Source: Microbacterium enclense
GTDB taxonomy: Bacteria > Actinomycetota > Actinomycetes > Actinomycetales > Microbacteriaceae
DNA length: 64,000 nucleotides
Direction: 5' to 3'
NCBI RefSeq assembly: GCF_004022425.1
Contig: NZ_RBZY01000003.1
Span: forward strand, 1 to 64,000
Shown here: positions 9,276-57,249 of the stretch, piece by piece
How positions within the stretch are numbered: the first letter of the stretch is position 1
Layout: each line of letters starts with the position of its first letter
Notes under the pieces: model-generated
Databases searched by the model: none
What the model saw: the letters and a program-made list of their open reading frames with translations, nothing else
What the model was told of the DNA's origin: nothing
Position numbers and translations under genes: made by a program

Positions 9276-9292
9276 GGAAGACCTTTCGTCGT

Positions 9293-9443: not shown

Positions 9444-9497
9444 GTCCGTCTCCGCGTCGCGCCCGGCTCGCGACGCGCCGAGGTCTAGCCTGAGCGC

Positions 9498-10193: not shown

Positions 10194-10323
10194 GGTTCGG
10201 GGCGGCGCGGCGGTGGGAACGTCTACCGGCACGTGCTCACGGTGCGACACCCGCGGACGAACGCGATTCGGTCGAGAGTCAAGCGGGGATGCGTTCGGTC
10301 TTCTCGCGATTACGGTTCAGCCG

Positions 10324-40353: not shown

Positions 40354-40940
40354 GCCGGGTGTCCGATGACGCAGGTGCCCGAGACGCGGCCGAGCAGGAT
40401 GACCTCGTGCGTGGGGCTCAGATCGAGCAGACCCGGATCGATCTGAGCCCTTGCCGCTCCGTCGCCGCTTGCCTCGGCGTGCCAGACGATGACCGCTACG
40501 GCCACATCCTCGCCCGGCACGAAGCCCTCGCCATTCTGGAGTGCGCACGGGTGCGAAGGCTCCGTCGCATCCCGCGCGGAGTCGCCATCCTCGACCGAGG
40601 CCCGCGGACCTGCGGGCGGGGACTGGTCGAGGGACACGGGGTGGAGTGGAGCGGTCATGATGTCCGTGTAGACGGTGCCATCGAGTTCGTGCACGACGAC
40701 GCGCACGGGGGAGTCGCGTTGCTCGACGACCTCGCTGATGATCTGCGCGAAGGAGTGCCGCTGCCACGGCGGGGCGAACGTCGGCGGACCGAACGGCTCC
40801 CCGTCGACCACGACGCGCAGCGTCGCGTCCGCCTGCACGGTCATCGTCACGACCGGCAGCACGGGCGGCACGTTGGCTGAGCCCCCCTGCTCGGCACTCT
40901 CTGATCGAGCGCGGCGTCGCCGCGCAAGGGTGATGGACAT
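40350..40940 (-). CDS. Transfer-operon protein of unknown function
   Basis: 196 residues from ATG 40940 (MSITLARRRRARS), with GAGGAG upstream. The N-terminus is basic, the centre beta-rich (VTMTVQADATLRVVVDGEPF, SPVRVVVHELDGTVYTDIM), and the C-terminus ends in ILLGRVSGTCVIGH. It starts 2 bases after the VirB4-like stop and overlaps the coupling-protein gene by 4 bases, so it is part of the secretion machinery or its control. No family recognised. Confidence 0.6.
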   Translation of the reverse strand: MSITLARRRRARSESAEQGGSANVPPVLPVVTMTVQADATLRVVVDGEPFGPPTFAPPWQRHSFAQIISEVVEQRDSPVRVVVHELDGTVYTDIMTAPLHPVSLDQSPPAGPRASVEDGDSARDATEPSHPCALQNGEGFVPGEDVAVAVIVWHAEASGDGAARAQIDPGLLDLSPTHEVILLGRVSGTCVIGHPA

Positions 40941-40941
40941 T

Positions 40942-42426: not shown

Positions 42427-42860
42427 AGTGATAGTCCTCGCCGGGAGCTGACCGGGGGTGCCTCGAACGGGTCGCGGGAGAATGGGTCCAACTCAAGTCG
42501 ACTGGCGACAGGTGCCGGGTGCCACGCGATGTAGCTCGAATGCTGCGACGCCTGATCGACGGCGGTCTCGGCTGACTGGACGAGTTCTGCGGCCCTGCGC
42601 AGTGCGTTGGCGGCGGCCCAAGCCTCGTCAACCCCGGCCTCGTGGTCGCCGTTGTCGAGGAATGCCTTGTCTTGGTGCAGAACATGCGCCGCCGCGACCT
42701 GCTCCAGCACTTGCTCCAGGGAGCGGAGCGTCCCCAGCAGCTCGCCGACCACCTGATAGGTGTCCGCGGGATCGGCGAAGGCGCGGCTCGCATGAGCGAG
42801 CGCCCGCACCGCCTGGCGCGTCTCCGTGGCGTCCTGTACGGGGTTGCTGAAGGTTGGCAT
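42423..42860 (-). CDS. Small helical transfer-operon protein
   Basis: 145 residues, helical (TETRQAVRALAHASRAFAD, GELLGTLRSLEQVLEQVAAAH), with a proline-rich C-terminus. GGAAGGAG precedes the ATG at an ideal distance. It lies between the SCO6880-like and VirB4-like genes, a position usually filled by an uncharacterised helical protein in these elements. Function unknown. Confidence 0.65.
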   Translation of the reverse strand: MPTFSNPVQDATETRQAVRALAHASRAFADPADTYQVVGELLGTLRSLEQVLEQVAAAHVLHQDKAFLDNGDHEAGVDEAWAAANALRRAAELVQSAETAVDQASQHSSYIAWHPAPVASRLELDPFSRDPFEAPPVSSRRGLSL

Positions 42861-42893: not shown

Positions 42894-44360
42894 TTACACG
42901 TCCCGACAGAGCGGGAGCGCGGCGACGGCGAATGCGGTGGCTTGCTGGCCGACGAGTCTGCGCGTTTCGCAGGAAGCCTGGACCGCGGCTTGCTCGATGG
43001 CGGCGACGGCGGCATCCAGATCATCGACCGTGGGCGCGGAGACGGAGATGAGGCCGGTGTAGCGGAGCACGCCGTGCCCTGCGGTGAGGTCGGACTCCTG
43101 CTGCAGCACGTCCTGGTACTCGGCCGTGCGCGAGGCGTCCTCGACCTGCCCGATCTTCGCGCGTTGGGTTGCGTCGGAGAGCAGGCCGACCTTTTTCTTC
43201 CGCAGGTCGCGGGCCGCGATGTCGGCGCGAACTGGCGTGCAGATGAGCGAGAACGACCGCTGCACGCCGGAGGTGAGCAGCAGCGGGGCGAGGAATCCGG
43301 GGAACACCTGCGAGCGCGGCCACTCGGAGAGCCAAAGCACGGTGTGGTGCGCGGAGTCGGTGCGCACGCGATCCCAGCTCTCGGTCACCGCGACCGGCCC
43401 CGCGGTGGCGAGGGAACGCCCGATGTCGGCGTGCCGCTCCAGCGCGGGCGCGGCAGCCGGGTCGTAAGCGGAGCGCAGGATGACAGCGACTTCGCCGGGC
43501 GCGAGCCAGCCGGTCGTGGCGAGGTCCGCAGCTCGCAGCGCCGTGACGAGCGTGGTCATCTCCTGACGCAGCACTGCGGCAGCTCCACGGATGCCGCCGC
43601 CCGCTGAGCGGATCTGTCGTCCCGAGGCGTTCATGTCGAGCGCAATCGAGATGGTCGTCGCATGGCGCTCGCCGGTCGGCCCAGCACGCTCGATCAGCTC
43701 CCGGTAGGTGGTCGCAGGCCAGGATTCATCGTCAGTGCCGTGCCTGGCCCACCATTCGGCGAGCCCCGTGCCTGAGTCCGGCAGCGTCCGCTCGCAGACC
43801 TGGAGCCGGGCGATCCGGCCTGAGCGGCACGCAGTAGCGAGCACCCGACCCCAGCCGTTGATCCGTCGCTCCTGCTCGCCCGGATCGAGCAGCACGAACG
43901 CCGGGTGCGTCACCCCCAGCACCGCGGTCAGGGTCTGAGCGTGGGGGTCGTGCACCATCGCCGCGCCCGTCTCGGGATCGACCCATTCGCGCAGCGCGGT
44001 CGCATCGCCGGGGAGCGCGAGCGTGCCGACGGGACGCGGCTTGATGACGCGGCGGCGGAAGATCAACTGCCCAGCGGTGCTCCGCCACATCCAGCGCGAC
44101 ACGATGGGCAGCCAGTCTACGAGCTTGCGCCCGCCCACGGGGACGACCGCGAGCAGCAGACAGCTGAGCCAGATCGGGGATGTCCAGACCAGCCCCATGC
44201 CACCGCCCGTGTAGATCGTGGCGACGACCGTGACCACGCCGATGCCCAGCACGATCAACTGCGAGATTGACAGTCCGAGCAGGATGCCACGGTGCGCGAG
44301 TCGGGAGAACTGCACGGGGGAGAGCTGCTGCTCGGGAGCCGGAGGGTGCCGGGTGGCCAT
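42894..44360 (-). CDS. SCO6880 family type IV transfer protein
   Basis: 488 residues. Two membrane segments near the N-terminus (about 29-55 and 60-75, PrgI-like) are followed by a soluble domain resembling the N-terminal part of VirB4/TraC (HHTVLWLSEWPRSQVFPGFLAPLL, RAKIGQVEDASRTAEYQDVLQQE). It is a constant partner of VirB4-like ATPases in actinobacterial ICEs and probably anchors the ATPase to the membrane channel. Confidence 0.85.
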   Translation of the reverse strand: MATRHPPAPEQQLSPVQFSRLAHRGILLGLSISQLIVLGIGVVTVVATIYTGGGMGLVWTSPIWLSCLLLAVVPVGGRKLVDWLPIVSRWMWRSTAGQLIFRRRVIKPRPVGTLALPGDATALREWVDPETGAAMVHDPHAQTLTAVLGVTHPAFVLLDPGEQERRINGWGRVLATACRSGRIARLQVCERTLPDSGTGLAEWWARHGTDDESWPATTYRELIERAGPTGERHATTISIALDMNASGRQIRSAGGGIRGAAAVLRQEMTTLVTALRAADLATTGWLAPGEVAVILRSAYDPAAAPALERHADIGRSLATAGPVAVTESWDRVRTDSAHHTVLWLSEWPRSQVFPGFLAPLLLTSGVQRSFSLICTPVRADIAARDLRKKKVGLLSDATQRAKIGQVEDASRTAEYQDVLQQESDLTAGHGVLRYTGLISVSAPTVDDLDAAVAAIEQAAVQASCETRRLVGQQATAFAVAALPLCRDV

Positions 44361-44363
44361 GTT

Positions 44364-45653
44364 CTACCCCTTCCTCGGTGCCACGGGTATCGGTGGCGCT
44401 GATGTCTCTGCGTGCCCGGCTGCTGCGCCGCCGACAGCGGCACCGATTTTCGGCCCAGTCGTCGCTGCGGCTTTGACAACCTGCGCCCCCACGACGGCTG
44501 CGGCCGCAGGCCCGGCCGCTGCTGCCCCGGCACCTGCCGCGCCCCCCGAGGCCGCAGCCCCGCCACCAGAAGCGGCCGCCCCGCCACCTGCGCCCGCAGC
44601 GCCGCCTGCTGCGCCACTTGCAGCGGGAGCTGTGCTCGGCGCGGGAGGAGTCCCGCCTCGCGCGCCGCTTTGCCCTCCGAGGACGGACTTTGCCGCGTTC
44701 GGCGGAGCCTTGACCGGCAGCGGGACGGGTCGGTTGAGCGCCGACTTCGCTTCCTGCTCGCTCGACATCGCGTGGTACATGTCGAAGCCCACGAACGAGA
44801 TGAACTTGTACGTCAGGTACGGCGCGAACGCGGCGATGAACATCAGCACGACGCCCGAGATCGGGTCACTGATCGAGGCGAGGTCGAGGTCGATGGGCGC
44901 GCTGATCTGCCCAATGGCGACGAGGAACACGACGACGATGACGAGCTTCGAGAAGATGAGCGCCACGACGAACGCCGCCCAGCGTCCGAACCAACCCTTC
45001 GCGGCATCCCAGGTGAACCCGGCGAGTGCGATGGGCGCGAAGACAATGGCGACCAGCAGCAGCGCCTTACGGATGAGCAGCGTGAACCATACGATGCCCG
45101 CACCCGCGATGCCGAGCCCGGCAAGGAAGATCGTGATGATCGCACCGACGCCGGGCGAGGCGATGTTGATCGTCGTCAGCCCAGCGGCGAGCAGGGCCAT
45201 GCGGTCGCCGATGCCTTCCATCGTGTTGCCAGTCGCCTGCACGATGCCGATGGTGAGCTGATCGGTGACCTCCAACAGGGTCGCGGTGAGGGTGATGGCG
45301 ACGAACGATCCGAGCACCGACTTGGCGAGTCCCACGCCCGCGCGCGACAGTGCCATCGGATCTCGATGCACGAGCCCGGTGATGAGTTGGAGGCAGAAGA
45401 AGACGAGCATGACGAAGATCGCCACCCCGAACAGCACGTTGTAGACCGAGACGTACTGGCTTCCAGTGACGTCGACGAGCGTTGTCGAGTCGAACACCGC
45501 CCACACGCTCTCGAACAGCCAGGCGGCGGCCTGCCCCATTGCCTGTGCGAGCCAGTCGAACGGCGCGGAGATGAGCGACGCAGTTCCCTCACCCACGGCA
45601 TCGCACACCGAGGCGATGACGGGCACATCACAGATACTCATCGGCTCAGCCAT
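44364..45653 (-). CDS. VirB6/TrbL-like polytopic transfer protein
   Basis: 429 residues with about seven membrane segments between residues 30 and 300 (for example VLFGVAIFVMLVFFCLQLITG, VLGSFVAITLTATLLEV, LLLVAIVFAPIALAGF). A Gly/Ala/Pro-rich low-complexity tail (residues 330-410) follows. VirB6-type proteins form the inner-membrane channel of type IV systems. It stands 3 bases from the SCO6880-like gene. Confidence 0.85.
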   Translation of the reverse strand: MAEPMSICDVPVIASVCDAVGEGTASLISAPFDWLAQAMGQAAAWLFESVWAVFDSTTLVDVTGSQYVSVYNVLFGVAIFVMLVFFCLQLITGLVHRDPMALSRAGVGLAKSVLGSFVAITLTATLLEVTDQLTIGIVQATGNTMEGIGDRMALLAAGLTTINIASPGVGAIITIFLAGLGIAGAGIVWFTLLIRKALLLVAIVFAPIALAGFTWDAAKGWFGRWAAFVVALIFSKLVIVVVFLVAIGQISAPIDLDLASISDPISGVVLMFIAAFAPYLTYKFISFVGFDMYHAMSSEQEAKSALNRPVPLPVKAPPNAAKSVLGGQSGARGGTPPAPSTAPAASGAAGGAAGAGGGAAASGGGAAASGGAAGAGAAAAGPAAAAVVGAQVVKAAATTGPKIGAAVGGAAAGHAETSAPPIPVAPRKG

Positions 45654-45671
45654 CTCAACTCGGTCGTGGAG

Positions 45672-45941
45672 TCAGACCGACTGGCCGACGTTCCAGAAGA
45701 AGTTCACGAGCGTCACCGACGCACCGCAGATGATCGCCGCGCCGCACGAGACGAGTACGCCGACCTTGCCCCGGCTGGCGAGGTGCGGATTCGAGCTGTT
45801 CGCCCCGTAGCCCCAGACCACGGCCGAGATGATGAGGGCGAGGACAGCGAGGATGAGCCCCACCGTCATGGCCGCGCCGACGATGACGCGGAGCTGTTCG
45901 ATGCCGGGCAACCCGTCGGTATTGGGGTCGATGTCGATCAC
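45672..45941 (-). CDS. DUF6112 family two-segment membrane protein (pilin-like), copy 1
   Basis: 89 residues from GTG 45941 (AAGGAGCACACA upstream). Two hydrophobic segments (about 18-43 and 60-85) are separated by WGYGANSSNPHLASRGKVG. The layout and position match the small VirB2-like proteins (DUF6112) of actinobacterial ICEs. A second paralogue lies at 55,797-56,063 (shared RVIVGA/RAIVGA, NSSN/NGNI, SRGKVGVLVS/ARAGFLVS, VTLVNFF/VTWVNFL). Confidence 0.8.
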   Translation of the reverse strand: MIDIDPNTDGLPGIEQLRVIVGAAMTVGLILAVLALIISAVVWGYGANSSNPHLASRGKVGVLVSCGAAIICGASVTLVNFFWNVGQSV

Positions 45942-45955
45942 TGTGTGCTCCTTGG

Positions 45956-45983
45956 GACTGGCGGGAGAAGGTTCTCGCCAGTC
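45956..45983 (-). terminator. Hairpin at the downstream edge of the cargo cassette
   Basis: GACTGGCGGGAG pairs with TTCTCGCCAGTC (12 positions, two G-T pairs) around AAGG. It lies between the end of the radical-SAM gene (46,092) and the GTG of DUF6112 copy 1 (45,941). Read leftward it could end or attenuate cassette transcription. The rest of the 150-base gap shows nothing else recognisable. Confidence 0.45.
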
Positions 45984-46091
45984 AGGTGCGCACGCAGTCC
46001 CCGGCTACGCCTCCATGTCGTCGTGGATGCCGACCTGCGTCAGCTCGATCCGGTTGCCGGCCGCTCGGCATGACGAACACGGCACCGGCGC

Positions 46092-46709
46092 CTACTCGAC
46101 GGTGTGATGCGCCTTCGTGCGGCGGCGAGTGAGGGAATCAGCGGGCCAGCCGTTCACGTCCACGCGCCCGTCGTTTCGCAGGCGGACTTCGACCCGCTGC
46201 TGCCCGTCGTTGGTCTGCTCTATCGAACTGTCGTATCGGTCGGACAGGTAGTGGAACACCTGATTGCTGGAACCAGCCCAAGCCCGTCTTGTTTCCCGCA
46301 ACTCGGAGACGTATCGACCATCCACGAGAACGTCTGTGTGGCTCAGGAGTGCGTCGGTGCCGGGGAGCGGATCGGCTCGAAGCTCCGCCAGCGTGTAGCC
46401 GGTGAAGACCATCACGGACAGGCCGAGTTTGTGGGCACCGGCCGCAAGTTCAGATAAGCCTTGCGCTTGGAGCATCGGCTCGCCGCCGAGAAGCGTGAGA
46501 CCTTCGATGTCGAACTGCGCTTTGGCCGCGACGAGTCGATTCAGGAGCGACTCAGACGTCACGAGTTCTCGCGGCGTTATCCGTAGGAAGTTTGGGTTGC
46601 AGCATCCGGGGCAGAGGAACTGGCATCCCTGGACCCACAGCGCGGCTCGGAGGCCGGGGCCTTCCGCTTCGGTGGCGGGCAGCCAGGAGGCGAGGTTCAC
46701 CCAGCTCAT
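46092..46709 (-). CDS. Radical-SAM activase-like protein (cassette gene 5)
   Basis: 205 residues. The [4Fe-4S] cluster motif CX3CX2C is clear (Cys29, Cys33, Cys36 in GCQFLCPGCC) and GGEP (76-79) binds S-adenosylmethionine; GLTLLGGEPMLQ and VDVLVDGRYV resemble the NrdG/pyruvate-formate-lyase activase group. Those enzymes make a glycyl radical on a partner enzyme, but no glycyl-radical enzyme is encoded in this cassette. The start overlaps the AAA gene by 4 bases (ATGA), so it is made together with the unfoldase. A role in modifying a protein or activating a cassette partner is inference. Confidence 0.85.
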   Translation of the reverse strand: MSWVNLASWLPATEAEGPGLRAALWVQGCQFLCPGCCNPNFLRITPRELVTSESLLNRLVAAKAQFDIEGLTLLGGEPMLQAQGLSELAAGAHKLGLSVMVFTGYTLAELRADPLPGTDALLSHTDVLVDGRYVSELRETRRAWAGSSNQVFHYLSDRYDSSIEQTNDGQQRVEVRLRNDGRVDVNGWPADSLTRRRTKAHHTVE

Positions 46710-48544
46710 TGGACCAGTCGGAATCCGAACTCAGGCCCGTCGGCGAGTTGAGCGACCCGCAGAGTGCGACCATCCGCGTCGAGCGGGGAGGTCAAGTTCT
46801 CGAATAGGAAGTTGGCAAGCGGGTCGATAATCGAATCGGAGAGAGCAGCGAGCACGCCGCGACCGCCAGCCGTGCGGTCCATCGTCGACACGACCGCGCG
46901 GAGCGCCCGAACCTCGTCGTCGAACCTGATGTCGCTGATTCCCCACTTCTCCTGGAGGCGGAGGCGGAGCGGCGTGAGCTTCGAGCGAGCTATCTCGACG
47001 AGGAAGTCGTCGTTGTCGATGAAGTCGAATGGGATGATGTTGGCTTCCCCGATTCGTCCGAGCAGCTCCGGCCGGTGAAGGTGCTCCACGAAGTGATCCC
47101 GCACGCGCTCGATGAACTCGTCTCGGACGTTCGGCGAGTGACGGTCCACTTCCGCGGCCCCGATGTTCGACGTGAAGACGATGAACGTGTCGGCGAACTG
47201 CACAGTCTCACCACGGCCGTCAGTCAGTCTTCCGTCTTCGAGGATTTGCAAGAACTTGTCGAGGATTCTCCCGTGAGCCTTCTCAATCTCGTCGAATAGG
47301 AGGACGGCGAACGGCCTCTTCTTGATGGCGTTGGTGAGTTGCCCGCCTTCCTCGAACCCGACATATCCGGGCGGTGCTCCGACCAGACGCTGGTCGGCAT
47401 GCTCGTGGTTGTACTCCGACATGTCGAAGCGAATGCACGCGGCTTCATCGCCGAACAGGAACTGGGCGAGTGACTTCGCAAGCTCGGTCTTCCCGACGCC
47501 GGTAGGGCCAACGAAGAAGAGGACGCCCTTGGGCGTGCGTTGCTTCCGCGAATGCTGAAGGCCCGAGAGTCCGGTGTAGGCCCGGATCAGCACCTTGTTC
47601 ACCGCCTCGATTGCCCGATCCTGGCCCTTTACGCGCTCTCCAAGCGTTTGAGTGGTCGTTCGGAGCTTGTCTCGATTCAGTTGCTCCCACGGACTTGTGT
47701 GCTCGCCGAACTTGTAGAGGCTGACCAGTGACTCTGAACTGAGACCTCGCTCGATGTTCGAAAGGGCTGCGATGTTGTGGATGTCCTTGACCGTGAGCCC
47801 GTCAAGCGCATCGACGAGATCCGTGAGGCCGCGCGTGTTCGGGCTGATGGGTGTGCTGATCTGGAGCGCCGAGCCTAGACCCAGGATCGCTTCCTCGCGT
47901 TGCTCGCGGTTAGGCAACGGAATGGAGACGGTTGCCCAATCCGGGTTGTTCACATAGAGGGCTGGCGGGAGGACGGCGAGGCCGCTGCACACCAGCACGA
48001 TCACGGGCGGCCTCGATATCGCCGTCGTGCTTGCGAGGGGGACGTCGCGCGTCGCCTTGCCGAGCAGCGTCAGCCAATCACGCTCAGCCGCGGGCAGGCT
48101 GTTCGGGTCGCCAAACATGTACTCGGTCCAGTCGAGGACGAAGGCCGGAGGCTCCGCAGTCTCGGACTTGACCGATGCTGCGACGACGTTGAGGAATTCG
48201 ACGGGATCGGTGGCGATCCGGCCTGCCGGAGCACGTTCGGGCCGGGGTCCGGCGTCATATGCCTCCCCTTCCTGTGTGGGCTGTGACGGAGTGGCAGCAG
48301 AGACAACGTCACGCCACTGTGCGGGGGAGACGCCCTGTACACCGTTGACACGATCCCAGAGGACCACCTGCCGGTAGCCAGCGGACTTCAATACATCAAC
48401 GGTCGCGTCGAGCACGCTCACCGGACCTCGACGCCCTTGCGGGTCGCGGGTGATGTCACGCACATTCCCGAACAGGACCACTCCGCGTCGCACGCGGATC
48501 TCTCGGCTCAGTGCCGAGTGCCACGGTGTCGCCTTGATGCTCAT
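46706..48544 (-). CDS. ClpB-like AAA+ unfoldase with degenerate first ATPase domain (cassette gene 4)
   Basis: 612 residues. Residues 1-270 look like an AAA domain without a usable Walker A (start EIRVRRGVVLFGNVRDI; PAFVLDWTEYM, VIVLVCSGLAVLP). The second domain is a clear ClpA/B-type D2: Walker A GPTGVGKTELAKS (about 346), substrate loop GYVGFEEGG, Walker B LLFDEIEKAH (about 416-422), sensor IVFTSNIGA and GGRGV. No ClpP-binding loop is obvious, so it probably remodels rather than feeds a protease. It overlaps genes on both sides by 4 bases. Confidence 0.88.
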   Translation of the reverse strand: MSIKATPWHSALSREIRVRRGVVLFGNVRDITRDPQGRRGPVSVLDATVDVLKSAGYRQVVLWDRVNGVQGVSPAQWRDVVSAATPSQPTQEGEAYDAGPRPERAPAGRIATDPVEFLNVVAASVKSETAEPPAFVLDWTEYMFGDPNSLPAAERDWLTLLGKATRDVPLASTTAISRPPVIVLVCSGLAVLPPALYVNNPDWATVSIPLPNREQREEAILGLGSALQISTPISPNTRGLTDLVDALDGLTVKDIHNIAALSNIERGLSSESLVSLYKFGEHTSPWEQLNRDKLRTTTQTLGERVKGQDRAIEAVNKVLIRAYTGLSGLQHSRKQRTPKGVLFFVGPTGVGKTELAKSLAQFLFGDEAACIRFDMSEYNHEHADQRLVGAPPGYVGFEEGGQLTNAIKKRPFAVLLFDEIEKAHGRILDKFLQILEDGRLTDGRGETVQFADTFIVFTSNIGAAEVDRHSPNVRDEFIERVRDHFVEHLHRPELLGRIGEANIIPFDFIDNDDFLVEIARSKLTPLRLRLQEKWGISDIRFDDEVRALRAVVSTMDRTAGGRGVLAALSDSIIDPLANFLFENLTSPLDADGRTLRVAQLADGPEFGFRLVQ

Positions 48545-49665
48545 GCCCGATTCGTCCTTCCCGGCTGTGGCCTGGCAGTCGCATCCTGGTCGTCAGGATT
48601 GCGCCATGCGACAACTTCCTCGGTGAGCTGGATTCCGTACACCTCCTGAAGCGCAGGAACTACCGCGTCAATGTCGGCATCGCAGGAAGATCCCTTGTAA
48701 CCGGAGAAGTCATACTCAAGTTTCCCGTCAAGCGAGAGGCTGAAGGTGGCGCTTGAGCCGCTAGCCCTGGTGCCGACCACGACGACTTCATTGCTGTCCG
48801 GGGAGAGCTGGATGAGTCGAGGGTTCTCGACCCGGAAACCCGCGTCTTCGAGGGCGTTCATGACACCTCGAACTGCCTCGCGCCGCGAGTCCTCGGCATC
48901 TTCGAGTGCAGGGGAGTCGTCACCCTGCGGCGTGGCCACGTCGAGTCTCGGCTCGGGCGCCTCGGCGGAAAGCTCCTGCTGCATCTCTTCGACTTCAGCC
49001 TCACTGCGTCGAAGGGCAGCGACCTCGGACTCGGCTCTGCTACGCAGCTCCGTCAAGGCGGAAACAACGTCTGCTGACGATCTCGGGCCGGCCTCGGTGT
49101 CGAGCGACTGACGGAGCGCGGCGAGTTCGGTGTAGACGAGATCCCGAGATACGAAATCCGTCCACTGGTCGAGCGACTCTCGCCAGGCCGTCTCCGCCGC
49201 GCTCTCCGCGGGCGCAGCGGGTTCAGCTCGTGCGAAGGTGGGCGAGGGCTCGGATGTGCTTGTCGCGTCGTGGCTCCCATACGCCGCGGCACGGCTCTCG
49301 CCCCGCTTCCGGCGTGCTTCTCGAGGGAGGGGCCCGACAAGTGGGCCAATGGACTGACTCAACGATTTTGCGCGTGCGGGGTCGGTCTTGCCCAGCTCTC
49401 TGGCGCGCGCGATCATCCCCTCGATGGTCGCGAAGTCCTCGCCGACGTAGGCGTCGAGGCCCTGATCCCGGATGTCATCCAAGATGGTCTGGTAGCGGTC
49501 CAGGTGCTGCCCAGTGAATGCAGCCGAGCGCGCCGCCCACTCGGCATGTCGGCGCTCCGCCTCGGCACGCCTGACGGCTTCGCTCGCCGCACGCTGGGCT
49601 GCTCGTGCGGCGAGCGCGGCTGCGTCCAGTGCACGCGAATAGTTGAATGACGCCCGGCGGCTCAC
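48541..49665 (-). CDS. Coiled-coil protein with C-terminal alpha/beta domain (cassette gene 3)
   Basis: 374 residues from GTG 49665, preceded by AAGGAGGG at good spacing. The start overlaps the PIN gene stop by 4 bases (GTGA). Residues 1-60 are an Ala/Arg/Glu coiled coil (AALAARAAQRAASEAVRRAEAER is typical), then a helical region and a second coiled coil (about 190-245). The last 100 residues form a compact domain (VMNALEDAGFRVENPRLIQL, SSATFSLSLDGKLEYDFSGY). No known family. It could be an adaptor or sensor bridging the unfoldase and the helicase/nuclease. Confidence 0.7.
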   Translation of the reverse strand: MSRRASFNYSRALDAAALAARAAQRAASEAVRRAEAERRHAEWAARSAAFTGQHLDRYQTILDDIRDQGLDAYVGEDFATIEGMIARARELGKTDPARAKSLSQSIGPLVGPLPREARRKRGESRAAAYGSHDATSTSEPSPTFARAEPAAPAESAAETAWRESLDQWTDFVSRDLVYTELAALRQSLDTEAGPRSSADVVSALTELRSRAESEVAALRRSEAEVEEMQQELSAEAPEPRLDVATPQGDDSPALEDAEDSRREAVRGVMNALEDAGFRVENPRLIQLSPDSNEVVVVGTRASGSSATFSLSLDGKLEYDFSGYKGSSCDADIDAVVPALQEVYGIQLTEEVVAWRNPDDQDATARPQPGRTNRA

Positions 49666-51989
49666 TGGCGTTCCCTCCTTGCCTCTCGAATCTCTGGCCA
49701 TCCTTTCGCCGATACGCCGGTTGCCTGCGCTTTGGCACGCAGGTTGTTATCCCGCGTGACGAGTACGACATTCCCTCTGCTGTAGGCAATCGCGACGGAG
49801 AGGATCTGATTGTCCGGTTCGTCGATTGTTCCAAGATCGGGAGGGATCAGCGCGGGGCGACCCGACTCGAATCGAAGGGTGCTGAGCTGGCGGACATCAT
49901 CAATCGCGCGGTGAGCCGCACGAGCACGTCTGGCGGTGTCTTCATTCGCGCTCCGCTTTAGGCCGTCGAGTTCTTGGATAACACGATTCGGAATGACGCC
50001 GACTTGGCCCGCCCGGAGATCGCGGAGGCCCTCGGGCTCATCGAGGAGTGAGTTCGAGTCGAACACTAAGGCACCTTGTCCGGGCGCGAGTGCGGATGCC
50101 ATGTTCGACGTTGCCGTCTCACGCCACTTCAGCACGTCTGCACGAAGCGATACCAAGCCGTCCGGCAGTTTCCCGTCGACCAGCCGCGCCAGGTTCGGAT
50201 CTTCCACCGCATGGAGCCAGCGTTCGGCCGCGTTCAGCGCGGTTCCCACCGAGCCAGCGGCCACGCGTCCGACCGACTCTTGCGCGAACGTCGCGTTCTG
50301 GCGTCCGAGCGTGGCGTCAAGCTCGACCTGAGCGGCGGCGTAGTTGGCGATTGTCTGCAATGCAGCATGGTCTGGAACGCCGAGGTCAGTCGACGGGTCG
50401 CGCCACAGGTCAGATAGCAGAGTGGTCAGAACTTCGGTGCTGAAAAGATGCGGTGGGAGCGATCCAGCCAGACGGCTAAGCCGGAGTACCTCGCGCACCT
50501 CGATTGCGCTGCGCGGTTGCGCGAGGCGAGTCACGAGAGGCGACAACACCGCTGCGAGCGGTGCATTCGTGCCGAGCGCACCTTGGAGCGTCCGGGTCCA
50601 CTCGCTGAGAACGTCGATACTGACGGGCCGGCTTGCGGTCGCCGAGGAGATGAGCGCGGAAACGTCACCCAGGAGCGCCGCAACGCGAGACTCTACGAAC
50701 GAGGGTGCAGCTTCGTGGGCAGCAAGAACGAAGTCGCGCGAAAGATCAAGCACTTCATCAAGGGGTCGTCCCGCAACGCGCGAAGCCAATGCCTGCGCTG
50801 GGCGAGGTGAGAACCATGCCAGGGGGAGGGCAGCGATGGAGGGATCGTCGGATTGCGCAAGTTCGACTGCGAGTGCATCGCTGATGGCATCCCAGGCGGG
50901 TCCGGCGGTCTCCGCGTCGAGTTCGATCTGGACCGGCGCAAAAACTTGCTGCCCGCCCCAGGTGAGTGGAAGCTCCCCGACCTTTCGGCAAGCAACTCCG
51001 CGACCGTCTCTGACCGTCACGCTTTCAAGATCGGCGGGCCAGCCTGTGGACAGGGGAGCGCCGAGGGTGCGTTCGGAGTCGCCTTCTGAGAGCCAGGATG
51101 CGCTCGCGTGCTCAGCATCGAGCTGAATCCGAACCGTCAGATCGGGAAGTTCAACCGTCCTCGCGCCAATCCCGTGAACGGGGTCGGCGAGAACAAGGCT
51201 TGTGATGTTGTGGGAGAACTCGGAGGGGAACGCCGAGCCGCTGCGCGAAGTTCTGTTGACCACACTGTCGAGAATCGTCGTCTGCACGAGGGTTGGCTCC
51301 AGCCGAGCAAGCCAGCCGGTCGCGGCCTTGTTGCCTGCGACGTGAAGCGAGAGGTAGCCCTCGGGAGTCACGACCAGTTCGACATCGAGGATCAGCCAGT
51401 TCACCGTCTCGTCTACGTCGACCTCGACAGTCACGACGCGCGACTCTCCTCTGAGGAACCTCGGCGGCCGCTCCGCGAGAGTAGCGCGAACAAGAGAAGA
51501 GGGGTCGCGCGGAGAGAGCGTGTGAGCATCAAAAGCAAGGGCTGGTGGCGATGCAACCAGCCTGCTCGGTCGTTCACTCGACAACGAGTTCGACCAGGGC
51601 AGGTAGTAGAACTCTGCGGCATCTCTTGCCAGATTGCTCGGGAGGGTGTTGCGGTTGTAGAACTCCTGTCCTGCGGTGGAGAGGGTGAGCGTCCGAATCG
51701 GTTGGTCGAGCACCGACACGCCAGTTCCTGCCTCCGTGCTATGGATGATCCCGAGTCGCAGGAGTTCGGTGGCGCTGCTCTCAAGGAGGCGTGGAACGCC
51801 GCTCGCGCCGAGGTGCTCCTCGAACGCCGCACGCAGCGTTGCAGCACCTACTTCGGGGTTCTCGATGCCTCGGCGGCTCAGTCGCATAATCATGCGCTCG
51901 AAGGCTGTGGGCTTGCGAATGACGCTGTGCTCCACCGACGCCTGGAGCCAGAAGATCGGAACCCCGATATGGAGGGTGGTGAGCTTCAT
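49662..51989 (-). CDS. Large protein with C-terminal PIN nuclease domain (cassette gene 2)
   Basis: 775 residues. The first ~630 residues are of unknown type: an N-terminal winged-helix-like part (FERMIMRLSRRGIENPEVGA, LLRLGIIHS), a beta-rich middle and helices. The last ~135 residues are a PIN domain with four acidic positions: ALVFDSNSLLDEP (about 643), VIQELDGLKRS (about 668), EPDNQILSVA (about 726) and VLVTRDNNLRAKA (about 746). This form resembles PIN domains of PhoH-linked and eukaryotic Swt1/SMG6 RNases. RNase activity is likely from the family. It is coupled to the helicase by TGATG. Confidence 0.82.
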   Translation of the reverse strand: MKLTTLHIGVPIFWLQASVEHSVIRKPTAFERMIMRLSRRGIENPEVGAATLRAAFEEHLGASGVPRLLESSATELLRLGIIHSTEAGTGVSVLDQPIRTLTLSTAGQEFYNRNTLPSNLARDAAEFYYLPWSNSLSSERPSRLVASPPALAFDAHTLSPRDPSSLVRATLAERPPRFLRGESRVVTVEVDVDETVNWLILDVELVVTPEGYLSLHVAGNKAATGWLARLEPTLVQTTILDSVVNRTSRSGSAFPSEFSHNITSLVLADPVHGIGARTVELPDLTVRIQLDAEHASASWLSEGDSERTLGAPLSTGWPADLESVTVRDGRGVACRKVGELPLTWGGQQVFAPVQIELDAETAGPAWDAISDALAVELAQSDDPSIAALPLAWFSPRPAQALASRVAGRPLDEVLDLSRDFVLAAHEAAPSFVESRVAALLGDVSALISSATASRPVSIDVLSEWTRTLQGALGTNAPLAAVLSPLVTRLAQPRSAIEVREVLRLSRLAGSLPPHLFSTEVLTTLLSDLWRDPSTDLGVPDHAALQTIANYAAAQVELDATLGRQNATFAQESVGRVAAGSVGTALNAAERWLHAVEDPNLARLVDGKLPDGLVSLRADVLKWRETATSNMASALAPGQGALVFDSNSLLDEPEGLRDLRAGQVGVIPNRVIQELDGLKRSANEDTARRARAAHRAIDDVRQLSTLRFESGRPALIPPDLGTIDEPDNQILSVAIAYSRGNVVLVTRDNNLRAKAQATGVSAKGWPEIREARRERQ

Positions 51990-54900
51990 CAGCGTTGCCT
52001 CGTTTCGGGCGAGATCAGTTCGCCGAGCGCGCTCGCTTGCTTCATCGCACCTCTGCGTTCGACCATGTCCGTGATCTCGCGGTACACGGGAATGATGCTG
52101 GGGGTGCCGGTCGCGTCCATCGGGGGCAGCTCAACCTGATATGGAGTGAAAGTGTCGAGCGCACCGAAGACCACAAGCAGTTCCTGCGCGCGAGAGAAGG
52201 CGACATTGATGTACTCGAATCGAGCGACGTTGGCTCGGGAGCTTCGCCGACGGGCGGGTGCGCCATTCCCGAAGTTGCGCACCATGCTGACCAGGATGAT
52301 TGGCTTCTCCTTGCCCTGGTACTTCACGACGGTGTTTAGCTCGTACTTGATCGCCCTGAACGGACGATCCTTCGTCTCTCGATTGATCTCTTGACGAATG
52401 GCGCGAACTTGCGCCTGGTACATCGAGACGATTCCGACTTCCTTCCGTTCACCGGAGCGGGTCGAGGCGGAAACGAGGGCATCGTCGATGTCTCGGAGCA
52501 TCCGAACGATGAGCCGCGCTTCGAGTTCGTTCGTGCGCTCCTGCCCCGATCCCGGCCTTGGTTCGACCCAGGCGGTTCCCCGGTCATCGTCTGTGGTGTC
52601 GACCCAGACCATGTGCTGCTCAGGGCTTATCACGGGGAGATCACCGCGTCCACGGATAGTGAGCCCGTGTGCACGCGCCGTGTCGGGGTCGGCGATCCCT
52701 GAGGTGAGTTGGCCCTCGTAGAAGCGATTGACCGAATCCATGATGTCGGGGTGCATCCGGTGCTGTACGGTCAGGCGCTGCTTGATCGACTCGTCGGCAC
52801 GTTCGAAGTGAGTGCGGAACAGCGATGCCGTGACGAACTTCTCGTACTTCTTGAGGTTGTCAGGTGTCAGCGCGACTTCGGCAGGAACGTCGTCGTCCGA
52901 TTCTTCCGGCAGTCCTTCGGCGTCCTGGCCCTCCCGAAACATGGGAGGTAGCTGGCGATGGTCGCCGACCAGCGCAGACCGTCGGGCTCGCATCAGAGGA
53001 AGGAGTAGTTCGAGCGGGGTTGCCTTGCTCACCTCGTCAACTACTGCGAGATCGAAGCTCGTCAGGCCCGGATCGTCTAGCGTGGCCGGGTTCTCGTTGC
53101 AGGTAACCCCAACGACGTTGCACTCTGCGAGCCACACGTCGCCGATGGCTTCCCAATCTCGGCTGGCGACGGTCTCGTCAGACAGATCAGCAATCCACTC
53201 GTCCTGGATGTCACCCCACGCCTCGCTCTCGGCAGACAAGCGGGTCGCCCGCTCGATCTTGCCGGATAGTCGTGACTCGCCTTCTTGTCGCGCCTGGTCG
53301 AGCGCGGCTGCTGTCCTCGGCAACTTGTCGACGACGATCCCGAGCGACTGAGCGAACGGGGACGTGAGCAGCGACTCGGCTTCCGAAAGCGCCAGCTCGC
53401 GCCGACGCTGGGCGTCGACGCTTGCTGAGTGCGCCTGCTCCCGAGCAGTGCGGGACTCGTCAATCGGGGGGATCGAAGCGGCAAGAGACGACGTGGATTC
53501 GAGCAGATCTCGGGCGGCGCTCATCCGTGCAGACCTCTTGAATCGCGCCAGCAGACCCTTCGGCGGCTCATCAAAGACTGAGGTAGCACCAGGGAAGAAC
53601 CGAGCCAGGGTCCGCACATCGGGGGCGTTGGTGGATGTATCGGAGGTGAGGCCCTCCAGCTCGGCCTGGAGGCGCTGATAGTCCTCCACGGCCGCGCTGT
53701 CGACCTTCATCTTCTCCAGGACGTCTGCGAGCTGCGCTTCGAGCTCCCGTCGGCGCTCGGACTTGGGAGTGGCGCTAGGTGCTGGCTTGTCCTCAACCAC
53801 AGAGCGTGCATACTCCCGCGCAACTGGGACCGCAGTGCGCAGACGACCGAGCCACTGATCGAGTTCTTCGAGTTGCAGGCGATCAAGCGCGGCCTCGCCG
53901 AGCGATGGAACCGGGACTCCGGTCGCTCCGAGTGCTCGGACTTGATCGGCATAGGTCACGACAAGCGCGTCGTAGCCTTCCACCGCTGCCGAGTGAGATG
54001 CCTCGGCAGCCGTGAGCGATTCGAGCAGCTGCGTGGACTTCGCACGAAAGCTTGTGAGCTGCGCTACGAACTGCTGCTCGTGGGCGGCGTCATCGCGGCG
54101 CTGCTGGATTTCCGCGCTCAGGGCACGGTAGTAGCGTCCCAGCGCCTTCTCATTCAGAAACTCTTGGCCTTCATCGCTGAGTCGGTCTTCGTTTCTCGTC
54201 AGGCGAACGGCGCGAATAGAGGGATGCAAGGGGAGCCGACTCAATGCGTTGTCGACGGCCGTGTGGGTTTGCGACGCGACGAGAACGGTCTCATCGCGCG
54301 CAACGACTTGAGCGATCGCTTCTGCGATGACGGTGGTCTTGCCGGTGCCCGGTGGACCTTGGATCAGGCAGAGATCCGGCGCCGAAAGCACCTTCTGGAC
54401 TGCGAGCTTCTGTGCGTCATTCAGGGTCTGGTTGTGCCATCGCTCGACATCGGCGAGCGAAGCCGGTCGGCGCGCTTCAGCTGCGTCGAACATGTATCGA
54501 GCCAGGTACGGCGAGAAGCCGCCCTGGTCGCTGAGGTCTCGGAGTGCTCGGTCTTGACGGTTGACCTGCGACATGTCCTGTACGGCGCTCTGAACGATGA
54601 AGCCCGCCTCCGGGATGCGATCAAGCGCCTTGCGCGCCGCGGCCTCCGGGTCATCGCTTCGCTCGATTCTGGCAAGCGCATCGTCAGAGAACGCGAACGT
54701 GAAGTCTGTGGTTACTGCGCTGTCCCAGGGGGTGTCTAGGACCGCCGAGTCGGCGGCGGTGATCCTCGGGCGCACTCGCCTTGCACTGCCGAGTTCGCTT
54801 CCGCGAGGCTCCCGACCTTCGCTCGGGAGCTGAAACTGCCACTCGTCCTCACTGACGGAAACATCGAAGGCAGCTAGAGCATCGCTCTGCGAGAGCCGCC

Positions 54901-55702
54901 GGATTGCCTGGCTGAGTGCCTCCTCATTGTCACCGATGATTCGGAAGGTGACAGAGCGGTGATCCTCGCCTGCGTGACGCGACTCGTACCGAACTGCGGT
55001 GCGGTTCGCTTGGATGAGTCGACGCTTCCACTCCAAGAACGCGCTCCAGTCCTGCAACCGCACGGCAGTCTCGGACGAGATCGCTGGGAGTGCTGCGGCG
55101 AGGTCTTCCGTGAGGACGTTGCGCTCCTTTCTGACTCCCGCCACCATTCGGGCCACCTGACGGCAGGTGACGTCGAGCGCGACCTCGAAGTCGCGCGCTT
55201 CGCCCGCAGGCCCGTCGTGGAAGCTGAACACGGTCAGCGTCGGATTCCTATTTCCGTAGGAACGCTGCGTCTCCCGGTCTGTGCCCGATAGGTTCCAGCT
55301 CGCTTTGGCGACGAGCGAGATACCCTTCGGCAGCGGCCAGTTGGGGCGTGCATCGCCAGATAGACGGATCGACACGTTGATGCTCACTGAGCGGCTCCCG
55401 CTCGGGAACGTGAGCTTGGCAAGCGCGAGATGAGCTGGGAGCAGATCCGCGAACATTGCGTCCATCAGGAACTGCTCGACACTCTTGCTTTCGGTTCGCG
55501 CGGCGTCGGCGAGGGATGGATACCGCCGAACGAGACCGTCACAGGAGTTGCGGAGTTGCCGACGGGCCCAATCCCATCGGTCACCCGGAAGCTCGACGTA
55601 GAGGTTACCGCTCCGCACGCGTTGCTCTGACGGGTGAATCGCGGATGGTTGGCCCGCAGGAGGTGTGTCAGTTTCGGTTCCAGGCAGGACGTCGCTGCTC
55701 AT
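51989..55702 (-). CDS. UPF1/DNA2-like SF1 helicase with coiled-coil insertion (cassette gene 1)
   Basis: 1,237 residues from ATG 55702, with AGGAAGG six bases upstream; ATG 55708 is too close to that site. Residues 1-420 are of unknown fold. The SF1B core begins with Walker A QGPPGTGKTTVIAEAI (about 449-456) and is split by a long coiled coil (about 530-830). Then come motif II VVDEVSKATPLELLLPL (about 887), motif III LVGDHRQLPPM and motif VI NVAFSRAQELLVVFG (about 1170). Such helicases act on RNA or DNA. It is first in the cassette, and the order suggests helicase and nuclease are made in step. Confidence 0.9.
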   Translation of the reverse strand: MSSDVLPGTETDTPPAGQPSAIHPSEQRVRSGNLYVELPGDRWDWARRQLRNSCDGLVRRYPSLADAARTESKSVEQFLMDAMFADLLPAHLALAKLTFPSGSRSVSINVSIRLSGDARPNWPLPKGISLVAKASWNLSGTDRETQRSYGNRNPTLTVFSFHDGPAGEARDFEVALDVTCRQVARMVAGVRKERNVLTEDLAAALPAISSETAVRLQDWSAFLEWKRRLIQANRTAVRYESRHAGEDHRSVTFRIIGDNEEALSQAIRRLSQSDALAAFDVSVSEDEWQFQLPSEGREPRGSELGSARRVRPRITAADSAVLDTPWDSAVTTDFTFAFSDDALARIERSDDPEAAARKALDRIPEAGFIVQSAVQDMSQVNRQDRALRDLSDQGGFSPYLARYMFDAAEARRPASLADVERWHNQTLNDAQKLAVQKVLSAPDLCLIQGPPGTGKTTVIAEAIAQVVARDETVLVASQTHTAVDNALSRLPLHPSIRAVRLTRNEDRLSDEGQEFLNEKALGRYYRALSAEIQQRRDDAAHEQQFVAQLTSFRAKSTQLLESLTAAEASHSAAVEGYDALVVTYADQVRALGATGVPVPSLGEAALDRLQLEELDQWLGRLRTAVPVAREYARSVVEDKPAPSATPKSERRRELEAQLADVLEKMKVDSAAVEDYQRLQAELEGLTSDTSTNAPDVRTLARFFPGATSVFDEPPKGLLARFKRSARMSAARDLLESTSSLAASIPPIDESRTAREQAHSASVDAQRRRELALSEAESLLTSPFAQSLGIVVDKLPRTAAALDQARQEGESRLSGKIERATRLSAESEAWGDIQDEWIADLSDETVASRDWEAIGDVWLAECNVVGVTCNENPATLDDPGLTSFDLAVVDEVSKATPLELLLPLMRARRSALVGDHRQLPPMFREGQDAEGLPEESDDDVPAEVALTPDNLKKYEKFVTASLFRTHFERADESIKQRLTVQHRMHPDIMDSVNRFYEGQLTSGIADPDTARAHGLTIRGRGDLPVISPEQHMVWVDTTDDDRGTAWVEPRPGSGQERTNELEARLIVRMLRDIDDALVSASTRSGERKEVGIVSMYQAQVRAIRQEINRETKDRPFRAIKYELNTVVKYQGKEKPIILVSMVRNFGNGAPARRRSSRANVARFEYINVAFSRAQELLVVFGALDTFTPYQVELPPMDATGTPSIIPVYREITDMVERRGAMKQASALGELISPETRQR

Positions 55703-55746
55703 CGCCATCCTTCCTGTTGTGCGCAATCCACTGTATCGACGGCCAG

Positions 55747-55771
55747 GGACAGCGCGGCTCGGACGCTGTCC
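55747..55771. repeat. Hairpin at the upstream edge of the cargo cassette
   Basis: GGACAGCG (55747-55754) pairs perfectly with CGCTGTCC (55764-55771). It lies in the 94-base gap between DUF6112 copy 2 and the helicase gene. It could end transfer-operon transcription or be a regulatory site. A leftward TACAGT about 20 bases before the ribosome site is a weak -10 candidate for a cassette promoter. Confidence 0.35.
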
Positions 55772-55796
55772 TCGCCCCCCGAATTGCGACGATGGC

Positions 55797-56063
55797 TCAG
55801 ATGCTCGCGCCGACGCCGAGCAGGAAGTTGACCCAGGTGACGCCGAGGCCGGCGAGTGCTGCGGCTCCGACGGAGACGAGGAATCCGGCGCGCGCGCGGG
55901 CACTTGAAGTGATGTTGCCGTTCGCCGAGGAGATCGCCCACACCGCGGCGCAGATAACGAGCATGAGCACGGCGAAGATGAGCACGACGGTCAGCAGCGC
56001 GCCGACGATGGCACGCAGCTCAGCCTGTCCGCCGACGGCTCCGAAGTCGGGGAATACGTCCAT
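55797..56063 (-). CDS. DUF6112 family two-segment membrane protein (pilin-like), copy 2
   Basis: 88 residues (MDVFPDFGAVGGQAELRAIV) with two hydrophobic segments (about 18-43 and 58-85). It is a paralogue of the protein at 45,672-45,941 and shares its spacing of segments. It follows the M23 peptidase gene by one base. In related elements DUF6112 genes stand next to the VirB6-like gene; here the cargo cassette separates them. Confidence 0.8.
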   Translation of the reverse strand: MDVFPDFGAVGGQAELRAIVGALLTVVLIFAVLMLVICAAVWAISSANGNITSSARARAGFLVSVGAAALAGLGVTWVNFLLGVGASI

Positions 56064-56064
56064 G

Positions 56065-57249
56065 TCACGCAGTTCCTTCCGCCGAGCACAGTGCCGCGGT
56101 GCTCGCGGCGTCGAGGTTCTGCACGCCGCGCGCCTCAAGCCAGGGCTCGGCGTCGACGGCCGCCGCGTTCGTGCCGCCGGGCCGGATCTCGAAATGGAGG
56201 TGCGCTCCTGTGGACCGGCCCGACGAGCCGACGTTGCCGATGTGCTGGCCCGCGACGACGCGATCCCCGACGCTGACGAGGATGCCGCTGTCCCACATGT
56301 GGGCGTAGGCGGAGGCGATACGCTCGCCCCCGATGGTGTGCTCGATGATGATGAGCCCGCCGTAGCCGGAGGAGAAGCCCGCGTGGCTGACCACGCCGTC
56401 GGCGAGGGCGAGGATCGGCGTGCCGTCGGCTGCGGCCCAATCGGTGCCGGAGTGGAAGGCGCGCTCTCCGGTGAAGGGGTCAGTGCGCCAGCCGAAGTCG
56501 CTCGTGTTCACCCACGTCCCATTCGGCAGCGGGAACACCAGGGAGGTCGTCTCGGGCACGTCGCCGAGCGGCGTGCCGCCAGGCGTCGTCTCGGCGCGCC
56601 GGGTGAGCGCCGTCAGGATCGCTTCGGCGACCGGCTGGTAGTTCTGATAGCGGTCGGGGTACGCGGAGACCTCGACCGCTTGTGCGGCCTCGCCAGGGTC
56701 GAGGGTCTGCCAGCCGGGGATGTCGAGCAGGCCGCGCGGCGACGGGTAGTTCGGCCCGCTCGCCCCGCCGTAGAACGCCCGCGCCTGATAGTCGGCATCC
56801 ATCAGCTCGGCGACGGTGCCCCAGCCCCCGCTTGGGCGCATCTGGAACAGTCCGAGCGAGTCGTGGTCGCTGCCCGCGCCGTCGTTCGGGTAGTCAGTCG
56901 ACTCGGGTACGGCGCTCAAGTTGGCGAGCATCCGCAGCCGCGATTCGGTGAGCGCCGCCATCAGCGCGACGAGGACGCCTGCGCGCCCTACGCCCTGGGT
57001 CTGCGCGCCCACGGTGATGATCGTCGCGGCGTGCGTGAGTTGCTGGCGGTCGAGCGTCACGGTCGCGCCCGAGCGGGTGGTCGACGTGAGCGAATCGGGG
57101 ATCGGGCCGACGACGAGCGAGGTCGACGACAAGCACGCGGCGAAGGCTGCGGGCGACATGAGCAGGCCGACGCCGAGCAGGCTCATCGGAAGCATGGCTG
57201 CGAGCGCGGCGGCTGCCATGACGAGCTTCTTCATGCGGGTGCCGATCAC
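56065..57249 (-). CDS. Secreted M23 peptidase with lysozyme-like region
   Basis: 394 residues. A signal-like N-terminus (MKKLVMAAAALAAMLPM, second start at 57234) leads into a transglycosylase-like helical domain (VALMAALTESRLRMLAN, SLGLFQMRPSGGWG; Glu in TESRL and the QMRP motif are typical). The C-terminal half is an M23 metallopeptidase with HSGTDWAAADGTPI and HLHFEIRPGG. It probably opens the cell wall for the transfer channel, as VirB1-type proteins do. GTG 57249 overlaps the previous stop. Confidence 0.9.
   Translation of the reverse strand: MIGTRMKKLVMAAAALAAMLPMSLLGVGLLMSPAAFAACLSSTSLVVGPIPDSLTSTTRSGATVTLDRQQLTHAATIITVGAQTQGVGRAGVLVALMAALTESRLRMLANLSAVPESTDYPNDGAGSDHDSLGLFQMRPSGGWGTVAELMDADYQARAFYGGASGPNYPSPRGLLDIPGWQTLDPGEAAQAVEVSAYPDRYQNYQPVAEAILTALTRRAETTPGGTPLGDVPETTSLVFPLPNGTWVNTSDFGWRTDPFTGERAFHSGTDWAAADGTPILALADGVVSHAGFSSGYGGLIIIEHTIGGERIASAYAHMWDSGILVSVGDRVVAGQHIGNVGSSGRSTGAHLHFEIRPGGTNAAAVDAEPWLEARGVQNLDAASTAALCSAEGTA

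Follow-up and report, generated by a model that had tools for sequence, protein, structure and literature searches.

A mobile, co-inherited five-gene cassette joining a UPF1-like helicase and a PIN-domain protein to AAA+, coiled-coil and radical-SAM partners: a candidate anti-invader system

The DNA studied here is a stretch of 64,000 nucleotides from Microbacterium enclense (contig NZ_RBZY01000003.1, positions 1 to 64,000; hereafter, the window). It contains a cassette of five genes, all on the minus strand and read in the order helicase, PIN, coiled-coil, AAA+ and radical S-adenosylmethionine (SAM) enzyme (Table 1). The initial annotation, made from the sequence of the window, had described five leftward genes with overlaps of 1-4 bases and clear motifs in four of them. 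Indeed, the open reading frame (ORF) coordinates and the successive junctions (TGATG, GTGA, ATGA and ATGA) all checked out, and the motifs of the helicase, PIN, AAA+ and radical-SAM proteins are intact. In its longest version, the helicase frame extends to a GTG at 55903. The G+C content of the cassette stretch is 63.4%, as compared to 68.3% for the whole window. The cassette is a genuine, mobile and co-inherited five-gene system.

Table 1. Genes of the cassette and features of its insertion site in the window
Feature	Coordinates	Strand	Remarks
Gene 1, UPF1/SMUBP2-like superfamily 1 (SF1) helicase	51989..55702	-	1237 aa from ATG
Gene 2, PIN protein	49662..51989	-	775 aa; N-terminal part ~630 aa and C-terminal PIN nuclease (641-762)
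Gene 3, helical/coiled-coil protein	48541..49665	-	374 aa from GTG; alternative in-frame ATG 49701
Gene 4, AAA+ of ClpB D2 type	46706..48544	-	612 aa; N-terminal region ~285 aa
Gene 5, NrdG/PflA-like radical-SAM enzyme	46092..46709	-	205 aa
Left flank, small membrane-protein gene, DUF6112-type copy A	45672..45941	-	putative conjugative element
Right flank, DUF6112-type copy B	55797..56138	-
Inserted DNA, 9,855 bp	45942..55796	.	in place of 70-bp intergenic gap

In all, 90 loci were examined (80 genome, 2 viral and 8 plasmid loci), the genome loci being the best 80 kept from a radical-SAM alignment scan. The coiled-coil, AAA+ and radical-SAM genes were all present in 39 of the 90, and neither their order nor their strand varied among these 39 loci. 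A helicase scoring >400 bits was found in 34 of these; of the remaining five, L108 and L113-L115 end at a contig edge and L118 is a variant. Complete loci were defined as those holding all five genes, each with ≥80% profile coverage and >100 bits. Outside this set fell L098, which is truncated at its contig end, as well as L108, L113-L116, L118, L121, L124, L139, L140 and L144. Besides the window, 29 complete loci (5 plasmids and 24 genome contigs) have the same gene order; in L125, whose radical-SAM frame is already open upstream of where the AAA+ gene starts, the coiled-coil, AAA+ and radical-SAM genes are in order as judged by their ends. The five families thus co-occur in many unrelated loci; the initial annotation had named rare co-occurrence as an outcome that would refute it. 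Plasmid searches using the PIN and coiled-coil proteins as queries, which are free of the radical-SAM bias, returned 7 and 10 records, respectively. Of these records, five distinct plasmids were inspected (from Moellerella, Polaromonas, Acinetobacter, Photobacterium and Leisingera), all with this gene order, and five further records were Moellerella plasmids in which the PIN, coiled-coil and AAA+ matches are adjacent. The hosts are mainly Proteobacteria, together with Actinomycetota and Bacillota. Complete loci were found in Microbacterium, Comamonas, Diaphorobacter, Zoogloea, Lautropia, Halopseudomonas, Colwellia, Tropicibacter, Tabrizicola, Acinetobacter and Paenibacillus, besides metagenome-assembled genomes (MAGs).

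Co-inheritance was evaluated using the 29 loci and the window. Distances were correlated for all ten gene pairs (r = 0.90-0.98), and in a Mantel test on the helicase and radical-SAM proteins the observed value was reached in 0 of 2000 permutations. Based on these correlations, the five genes are one inherited unit. Mean identity was lowest for gene 2 (27%) and highest for the AAA+ (58%) and radical-SAM (55%) proteins. The spread of this unit is sporadic: among 396 genomes of Actinomycetota the coiled-coil profile had 1 match, and among 369 genomes in the class of Comamonas likewise 1, in both cases the centre genome itself. This is not the pattern of fixed housekeeping genes, which had been named in advance as counting against the proposed module. 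Similarly, a search of 299 genomes of the family with the PIN protein gave matches in 5, at full length in its own genome and via the PIN part alone in the other four. At 44 of the 80 genome loci (L128-L175 minus L139, L140, L144 and L149), mostly from Myxococcota and Planctomycetota, a radical-SAM relative stands without a coiled-coil gene; these were not counted as cassettes. A blastn search with Tenebrionibacter helicase DNA, the reach of which is ~65-70% DNA identity, gave 0 matches in 5,426 E. coli genomes. A phage origin was considered and rejected: the AAA+ query matched 140 phage records, none at 80% coverage; the best 80 AAA+ matches in viral contigs span only residues ~250-608; and the radical-SAM scan of viral contigs yielded two relatives, without the other four genes in the surrounding DNA examined.

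Parts of the cassette also occur in other settings. In L118 (6795-17552), the genes after the coiled-coil/AAA+/radical-SAM triad encode a vWA protein, a PP2C, a kinase and a divergent SF1 helicase. AAA+/radical-SAM pairs occur in Rhizobium (L092), where the radical-SAM match is short and weak, and in Aristaeella (L093), alongside kinase, phosphatase and FHA genes. Together, these arrangements support the triad as a separate module. L130, with a divergent helicase and a radical-SAM gene, looks like a reduced relative of L118. In L124 (Helicobacter cynogastricus, 1914-10579), the helicase lies in two frames and the AAA+ protein is reduced to a tail on the coiled-coil frame; this copy looks decayed. 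Alignment A9 was made without L124, L125 and the loci of the plasmid collection.

The cassette in the window is cargo, as had been proposed, and the element around it is putatively conjugative. Specifically, another genome of the genus (L179, 95% identical region) shows the element without the cassette: at this empty site, the DUF6112-type pair stands 70 bp apart. It is the one of nine other loci compared that reaches the insertion site; the rest stop short. On a 465-kb Microbacterium plasmid (L188), two annotated DUF6112 genes are 125 bp apart. We take the genes around the cassette, which encode a VirB4-type ATPase and membrane proteins, to be conjugation genes. In Microbacterium sp. BR1 (L096), the cassette occupies the same place. 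Identity between BR1 and the window is 84.7% over 38583-42860 and 96.6% over 42896-46059 on the left side, and 77% over 46106-50559 and 51277-56695; identity falls sharply at the cassette's left edge and not at its right, in a region that is variable anyway. The tandem DUF6112-type pair is the cargo site here, and other copies of the element may hold other inserts.

The helicase matched the Pfam families AAA_11 and AAA_12 (E = 5.5e-33 and 5.9e-32), and its nearest solved structures in a profile search of the Protein Data Bank (PDB) were SMUBP-2, DNA2 and UPF1. Patterns for SF1 motifs I, II and VI were each present in 33 of 34 homologues, and that for motif III in 34 of 34.

The C-terminus of the gene-2 product is a PIN_4 domain (Pfam, 9.6e-21). 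In an alignment of 27 sequences that included the window (A10), the acidic residues D644, E673 and D747 are invariant and D726 nearly so. This alignment was made without the plasmid loci, the partial loci L108 and L113-L115, and L121, L124, L140 and L144; the invariance is thus valid for PIN-bearing members. In a wider gene-2 alignment, L126 has G at the third acidic position, the last two positions are gapped in L121 and L144, and the acidic positions differ in L124 and L140. The predicted structure of the protein (predicted local distance difference test score of 85.7) has a PIN domain whose closest fold is that of human SMG6 (Z = 16.0, with 30% identity across 128 residues), followed by that of yeast Nmd4 in complex with Upf1 (Z = 14.7). 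The fold-search matches were all taken up by PIN domains, and none was informative on the N-terminal 630 residues. PIN_4 was found in 32 of 36 gene-2 proteins. In L140 (3945-7037; a Planctomycetota MAG), a Ppx/GppA phosphatase domain replaces it at the end of the protein, and no Pfam family was matched in the gene-2 proteins of L121 and L124. These sequences suggest that gene 2 is a carrier whose effector end can be exchanged. Besides PIN, no nuclease domain was among the Pfam matches listed for the five proteins.

The AAA+ protein is of the ClpB D2 type (AAA_2, 1.6e-49 in Pfam), and Walker A, pore-loop (G[YF]VG) and Arg-finger patterns were present in 39 of 39 homologues, pointing to an active ring. 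A Walker A pattern within the first 280 residues was found in 0 of 39, as was an IG[FL] pattern after TSN. The IG[FL] loop is the ClpP-binding element, and its absence leads us to expect remodelling, not degradation. A full two-ring ClpB chaperone was rejected: the protein scored 260.2 bits against a TIGR03346 cut-off of 1232.1, with the C-terminal part alone matched.

The radical-SAM enzyme matched Fer4_12 (Pfam, 3.4e-33), and its CxxxCxxC and GGE motifs are kept in 39 of 39 homologues. Its nearest solved relative is pyruvate formate-lyase activase (3.9e-12). It scored 94.3 bits with the NrdG model TIGR02491, under the cut-off of 126.1, and was rejected as a canonical NrdG. The usual partners of such an enzyme were searched for: the window's genome had no Gly_radical (PF01228) or NRDD (PF13597) match at 1e-5, and 8 of 15 cassette genomes have neither NrdD nor a glycyl-radical protein. 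In such a host, the target probably lies elsewhere, most simply within the cassette. The NrdG-like enzyme probably acts on some cassette protein.

Based on its conservation, the coiled-coil protein is the best candidate substrate. Across 40 sequences, including the window, 13 columns are invariant, among them Y323, C328, D331, Y343, W354, N356, P357 and D358. Y323, C328 and D331 lie in the C-terminal domain, the first two giving an invariant Y-x-x-x-x-C; G325 is kept in 33 of 34 sequences, giving the motif Y-x-G-x-x-C. It is the presence of Y323, C328 and D331 among these columns that singles out this protein, and we tentatively assign it as the target, at somewhat less than an even chance. 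Its sole Pfam match was UTP15_C, at 0.01 and below that family's cut-off, and its profile gave weak matches at most to solved structures (best E = 0.015). The predicted model is helical, ending in a C-terminal helix, four strands and a helix. In fold searches, the best match was the N-terminal domain of spermine synthase (Foldseek E = 1.6e-3; VIA Z = 10.9 over 102 residues), with lesser matches to KA1, AdoMet decarboxylase and RnlA at Z = 7-8. Values of 7-8 are common between unrelated models, and we therefore draw no function from these matches.

The C-terminal domain is possibly DUF2997-like, as judged from the sequences: PF11211 (DUF2997) matched 3 of 40 members of the coiled-coil family with E ≤ 1, the lowest value being 0.014, and the motif is, by eye, like that of the DUF2997 protein of L216. 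In L216 (1459-3055, in a 1.4-Mb genome), a 62-aa DUF2997 protein, an uncharacterised protein and an AAA+ ATPase form one cluster; by eye, the middle protein is perhaps DUF1257-like. DUF2997 also clusters with DUF1257 and the ferredoxin fed7 in cyanobacteria (PMC4284462). Thus, proteins with a GYKGxxC-type motif are repeatedly encoded near AAA+ and iron-sulphur proteins. These clusters differ from the cassette in that DUF2997 is short and standalone, and in that there is no helicase or nuclease in the 3.1-kb locus of L216 or in the cyanobacterial cluster as described.

The cassette was compared with known systems. Mokosh systems of type I have the serine/threonine kinase MkoB, and those of type II a PLD nuclease fused to the helicase. 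The cassette helicase core matched the PADLOC MkoA models (2.7e-104 and 4.4e-89, the best stretch of the first being 429-1098 of 1112), and would be the sole part shared with Mokosh, which is described as degrading viral transcripts (PMC11291487). The partners of the cassette helicase are instead PIN, ClpB-type AAA+, coiled-coil and radical-SAM proteins. No kinase was found on the five proteins among the matches listed (Pfam, PADLOC and NCBIfam, E up to 1), and no PLD domain was on the helicase among 25 of 28 Pfam families listed; Mokosh membership was therefore rejected. Type II/III CoCoNuT restriction systems bring together a UPF1-like helicase and nuclease effectors of various kinds, along with coiled coils and a P-loop motor; some types include TerY-P, and RNA is the predicted target (PMC11090510). 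A UPF1-like SF1 helicase is likewise present in the cassette, judging from its PDB profile matches. However, the CoCoNuT motor is a McrB-type GTPase, whereas that of the cassette is a ClpB-type AAA+ protein, accompanied by a PIN effector and a radical-SAM enzyme; the McrB model reached 0.0049 against the AAA+ protein, and membership was rejected for lack of such a GTPase. In MoxR-vWA ternary systems, SF1 helicase modules accompany PIN effectors, and in FtsH-type ternary systems one half of the AAA+ protein is inactive and the other active; one subtype includes a radical-SAM gene, for which modification of a peptide effector has been proposed (PMC7159879). The cassette has no vWA or MoxR gene, and a vWA gene was found beside the triad in L118 only. 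With no vWA domain among the Pfam families listed for the five proteins, membership of the vWA ternary or TerY-P systems was rejected. Finally, the cassette is like the UPF1-SMG6 machinery of nonsense-mediated decay in its UPF1-like helicase and SMG6-like PIN domain, which is a resemblance of parts and no sign of a common pathway or a direct line of descent. No published description of the five-gene set was found in the literature searched, which omits most subscription papers and preprints; to that extent, the earlier statement that no named defence system has this set stands. The cassette, most likely an anti-invader system, is of a known general kind, that of helicase-nuclease conflict systems that include a P-loop motor, but its putative radical-SAM/coiled-coil control arm is unusual.

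Flanking genes were evaluated using PADLOC. At ≤1e-15, 124 flank proteins from 13 loci matched 89 families, as compared to 15 for 107 proteins from 13 control windows, which are imperfectly matched, having been taken from 7 of the cassette genomes at hand-chosen positions. Flank-ORF sets A11 and A12 were a hand-picked 143 of 219 ORFs; set A14 comprised 58 of 86 upstream ORFs (0 of 12 for L191 and 0 of one for L200) and 66 downstream ORFs. BrxL (1e-50) was found in 3 of 14 cassette genomes, ~2 kb from the helicase gene in Comamonas (G805), ~10 kb from it in Halopseudomonas (G809), and on a separate contig in the third. JukA (1e-20) was also found in 3 of 14, the copies in G805 and G809 lying ~6 and ~7 kb from the cassette, and the flank set held one PglZ and one BrxHI match. 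The initial annotation had named defence islands as places to look for the set; some loci have BREX and Juk neighbours, and others have no BrxL or JukA neighbour. The flanks are thus defence-rich at some loci, which is compatible with a defence system and is not proof of one.

Overall, we consider it likely that the cassette is an anti-invader conflict system and, if it is, rather probable that it acts by cleaving RNA. A defence role in which PIN cuts RNA and the AAA+ and radical-SAM proteins control the effector is plausible. The scheme that we infer, from its defence role and RNA target to the radical-SAM substrate, the direction of the switch and its chemistry, would run as follows. The UPF1-like helicase and the gene-2 protein would form a sensor-effector pair that travels along foreign RNA and cuts it. 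The coiled-coil protein would hold or adapt the effector, coupling the helicase and gene-2 protein to the AAA+ ring, and this ClpB-type ring would remodel the effector complex without degrading it. The NrdG-like enzyme would modify the coiled-coil protein at Y-x-G-x-x-C, and the state of this modification would decide whether the ring releases or resets the nuclease. As a whole, this model of a helicase-RNase anti-invader system under AAA+/radical-SAM/coiled-coil control is evenly balanced between right and wrong. A more specific version, which we regard as somewhat unlikely, is that the radical-SAM enzyme writes a radical-derived mark on the Y-x-G-x-x-C of the coiled-coil protein, that the AAA+ protein reads this mark and frees the helicase-RNase, and that the triad is reused with other effectors. 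The other effectors meant are Ppx/GppA and the kinase-phosphatase-vWA sets.

Several observations weigh against the proposed model. Defence and RNA targeting are predictions from the genes and their genomic context. The genome loci come from a radical-SAM query, so the presence of the radical-SAM gene there is by construction. Some loci are MAGs, and L111 (labelled Lentisphaerae) and L100 (Acidovorax) share a 97% identical flank protein; the taxon label of L111 may be a binning error. NrdD and/or another glycyl-radical protein is present in 7 of 15 cassette hosts, so the argument from a missing partner fails for some hosts, and absences in genomes other than the window's were counted irrespective of completeness. 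The link to DUF2997 is sub-threshold. The PADLOC counts are of families, not genes, the BREX models are redundant, the flank proteins were hand-picked, and the flank families named among the matches listed amount to 25 of the 89. The controls themselves matched DpdF (2.3e-94), BrxHI-type (1.2e-24) and BrxL (1.2e-17) models. At least 11 other loci had no BrxL or JukA neighbour by these two tests.

UPF1-like helicases also work on DNA, and the foremost alternative is a Hachiman-like helicase-nuclease that degrades damaged or incoming DNA, with the triad as a safety control. UPF1-like helicases are described as working on RNA and single-stranded DNA (PMC11090510), in Hachiman a helicase serves as sensor and a nuclease as effector (PMC12278908), and DNA2 is among the best helicase profile matches. 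We nevertheless regard this alternative as unlikely, as the PIN domain is closest to those of SMG6 and Nmd4, both of RNA decay, and no other nuclease domain is among the families listed for the five proteins.

Less likely still is a module for RNA surveillance or stress that would help the element or its host with toxic RNA, stalled ribosomes or conjugation and would not be primarily anti-phage. Its sporadic spread, the swap of effector in L140, the defence-rich flanks at some loci and the existence of two related copies of the element without the cassette all favour a conflict system over such a module, even though the parts resemble those of eukaryotic UPF1-SMG6 decay and the cassette sits within a putative conjugative gene cluster. 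A viperin-like enzyme making a small antiviral nucleotide, with the other genes acting with its product, is very improbable: the weak matches to PADLOC pVip models (4e-6 and 6.5e-6) are set against a score of 24.8 bits with the viperin model NF038283 (cut-off of 180), on which viperin was rejected, as compared to 94.3 bits for NrdG, and the nearest solved relative is a protein-radical activase. That an ordinary glycyl-radical activase and chaperone genes lie together by accident is scarcely credible despite their NrdG-like and ClpB-like families and the NrdD or other glycyl-radical protein in 7 of 15 hosts, given the five genes' co-inheritance, the two curated cut-offs missed and the lack of a glycyl-radical or NrdD match in the window's genome.

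If the helicase-RNase model is right, the cassette would be an unnamed, widely scattered immune system joining a UPF1-SMG6-like helicase-RNase, radical-SAM chemistry and an AAA+ remodeller, and also a bacterial counterpart, in parts, of eukaryotic RNA surveillance. To our knowledge, radical-SAM enzymes in immunity are otherwise mainly nucleotide makers such as viperin; a protein-modifying role would thus be new to immunity, and DUF2997-type domains would gain a testable function.

Further genes were observed near the cassette. A second radical-SAM operon adjoins it in Diaphorobacter, Shewanella, Colwellia and Pseudoalteromonas (L105:10685-13829, L115:4388-7892, L117:10731-14363 and L122:10718-14350). 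The L105 version has a SPASM domain, and the partner in these operons is related to the JmjC/cupin-like protein of L105. Yet another radical-SAM gene stands alongside the cassette in L100, L103 and L113. A trio of DUF6270, SIS-domain and histidine-phosphatase genes lies near the cassette in Moellerella (L007:215-2596) and a Ruminococcus MAG (L149:15407-17741). Finally, thymidylate-kinase-like, radical-SAM and uncharacterised genes lie downstream of the Acinetobacter plasmid copy (L089:12709-14691).

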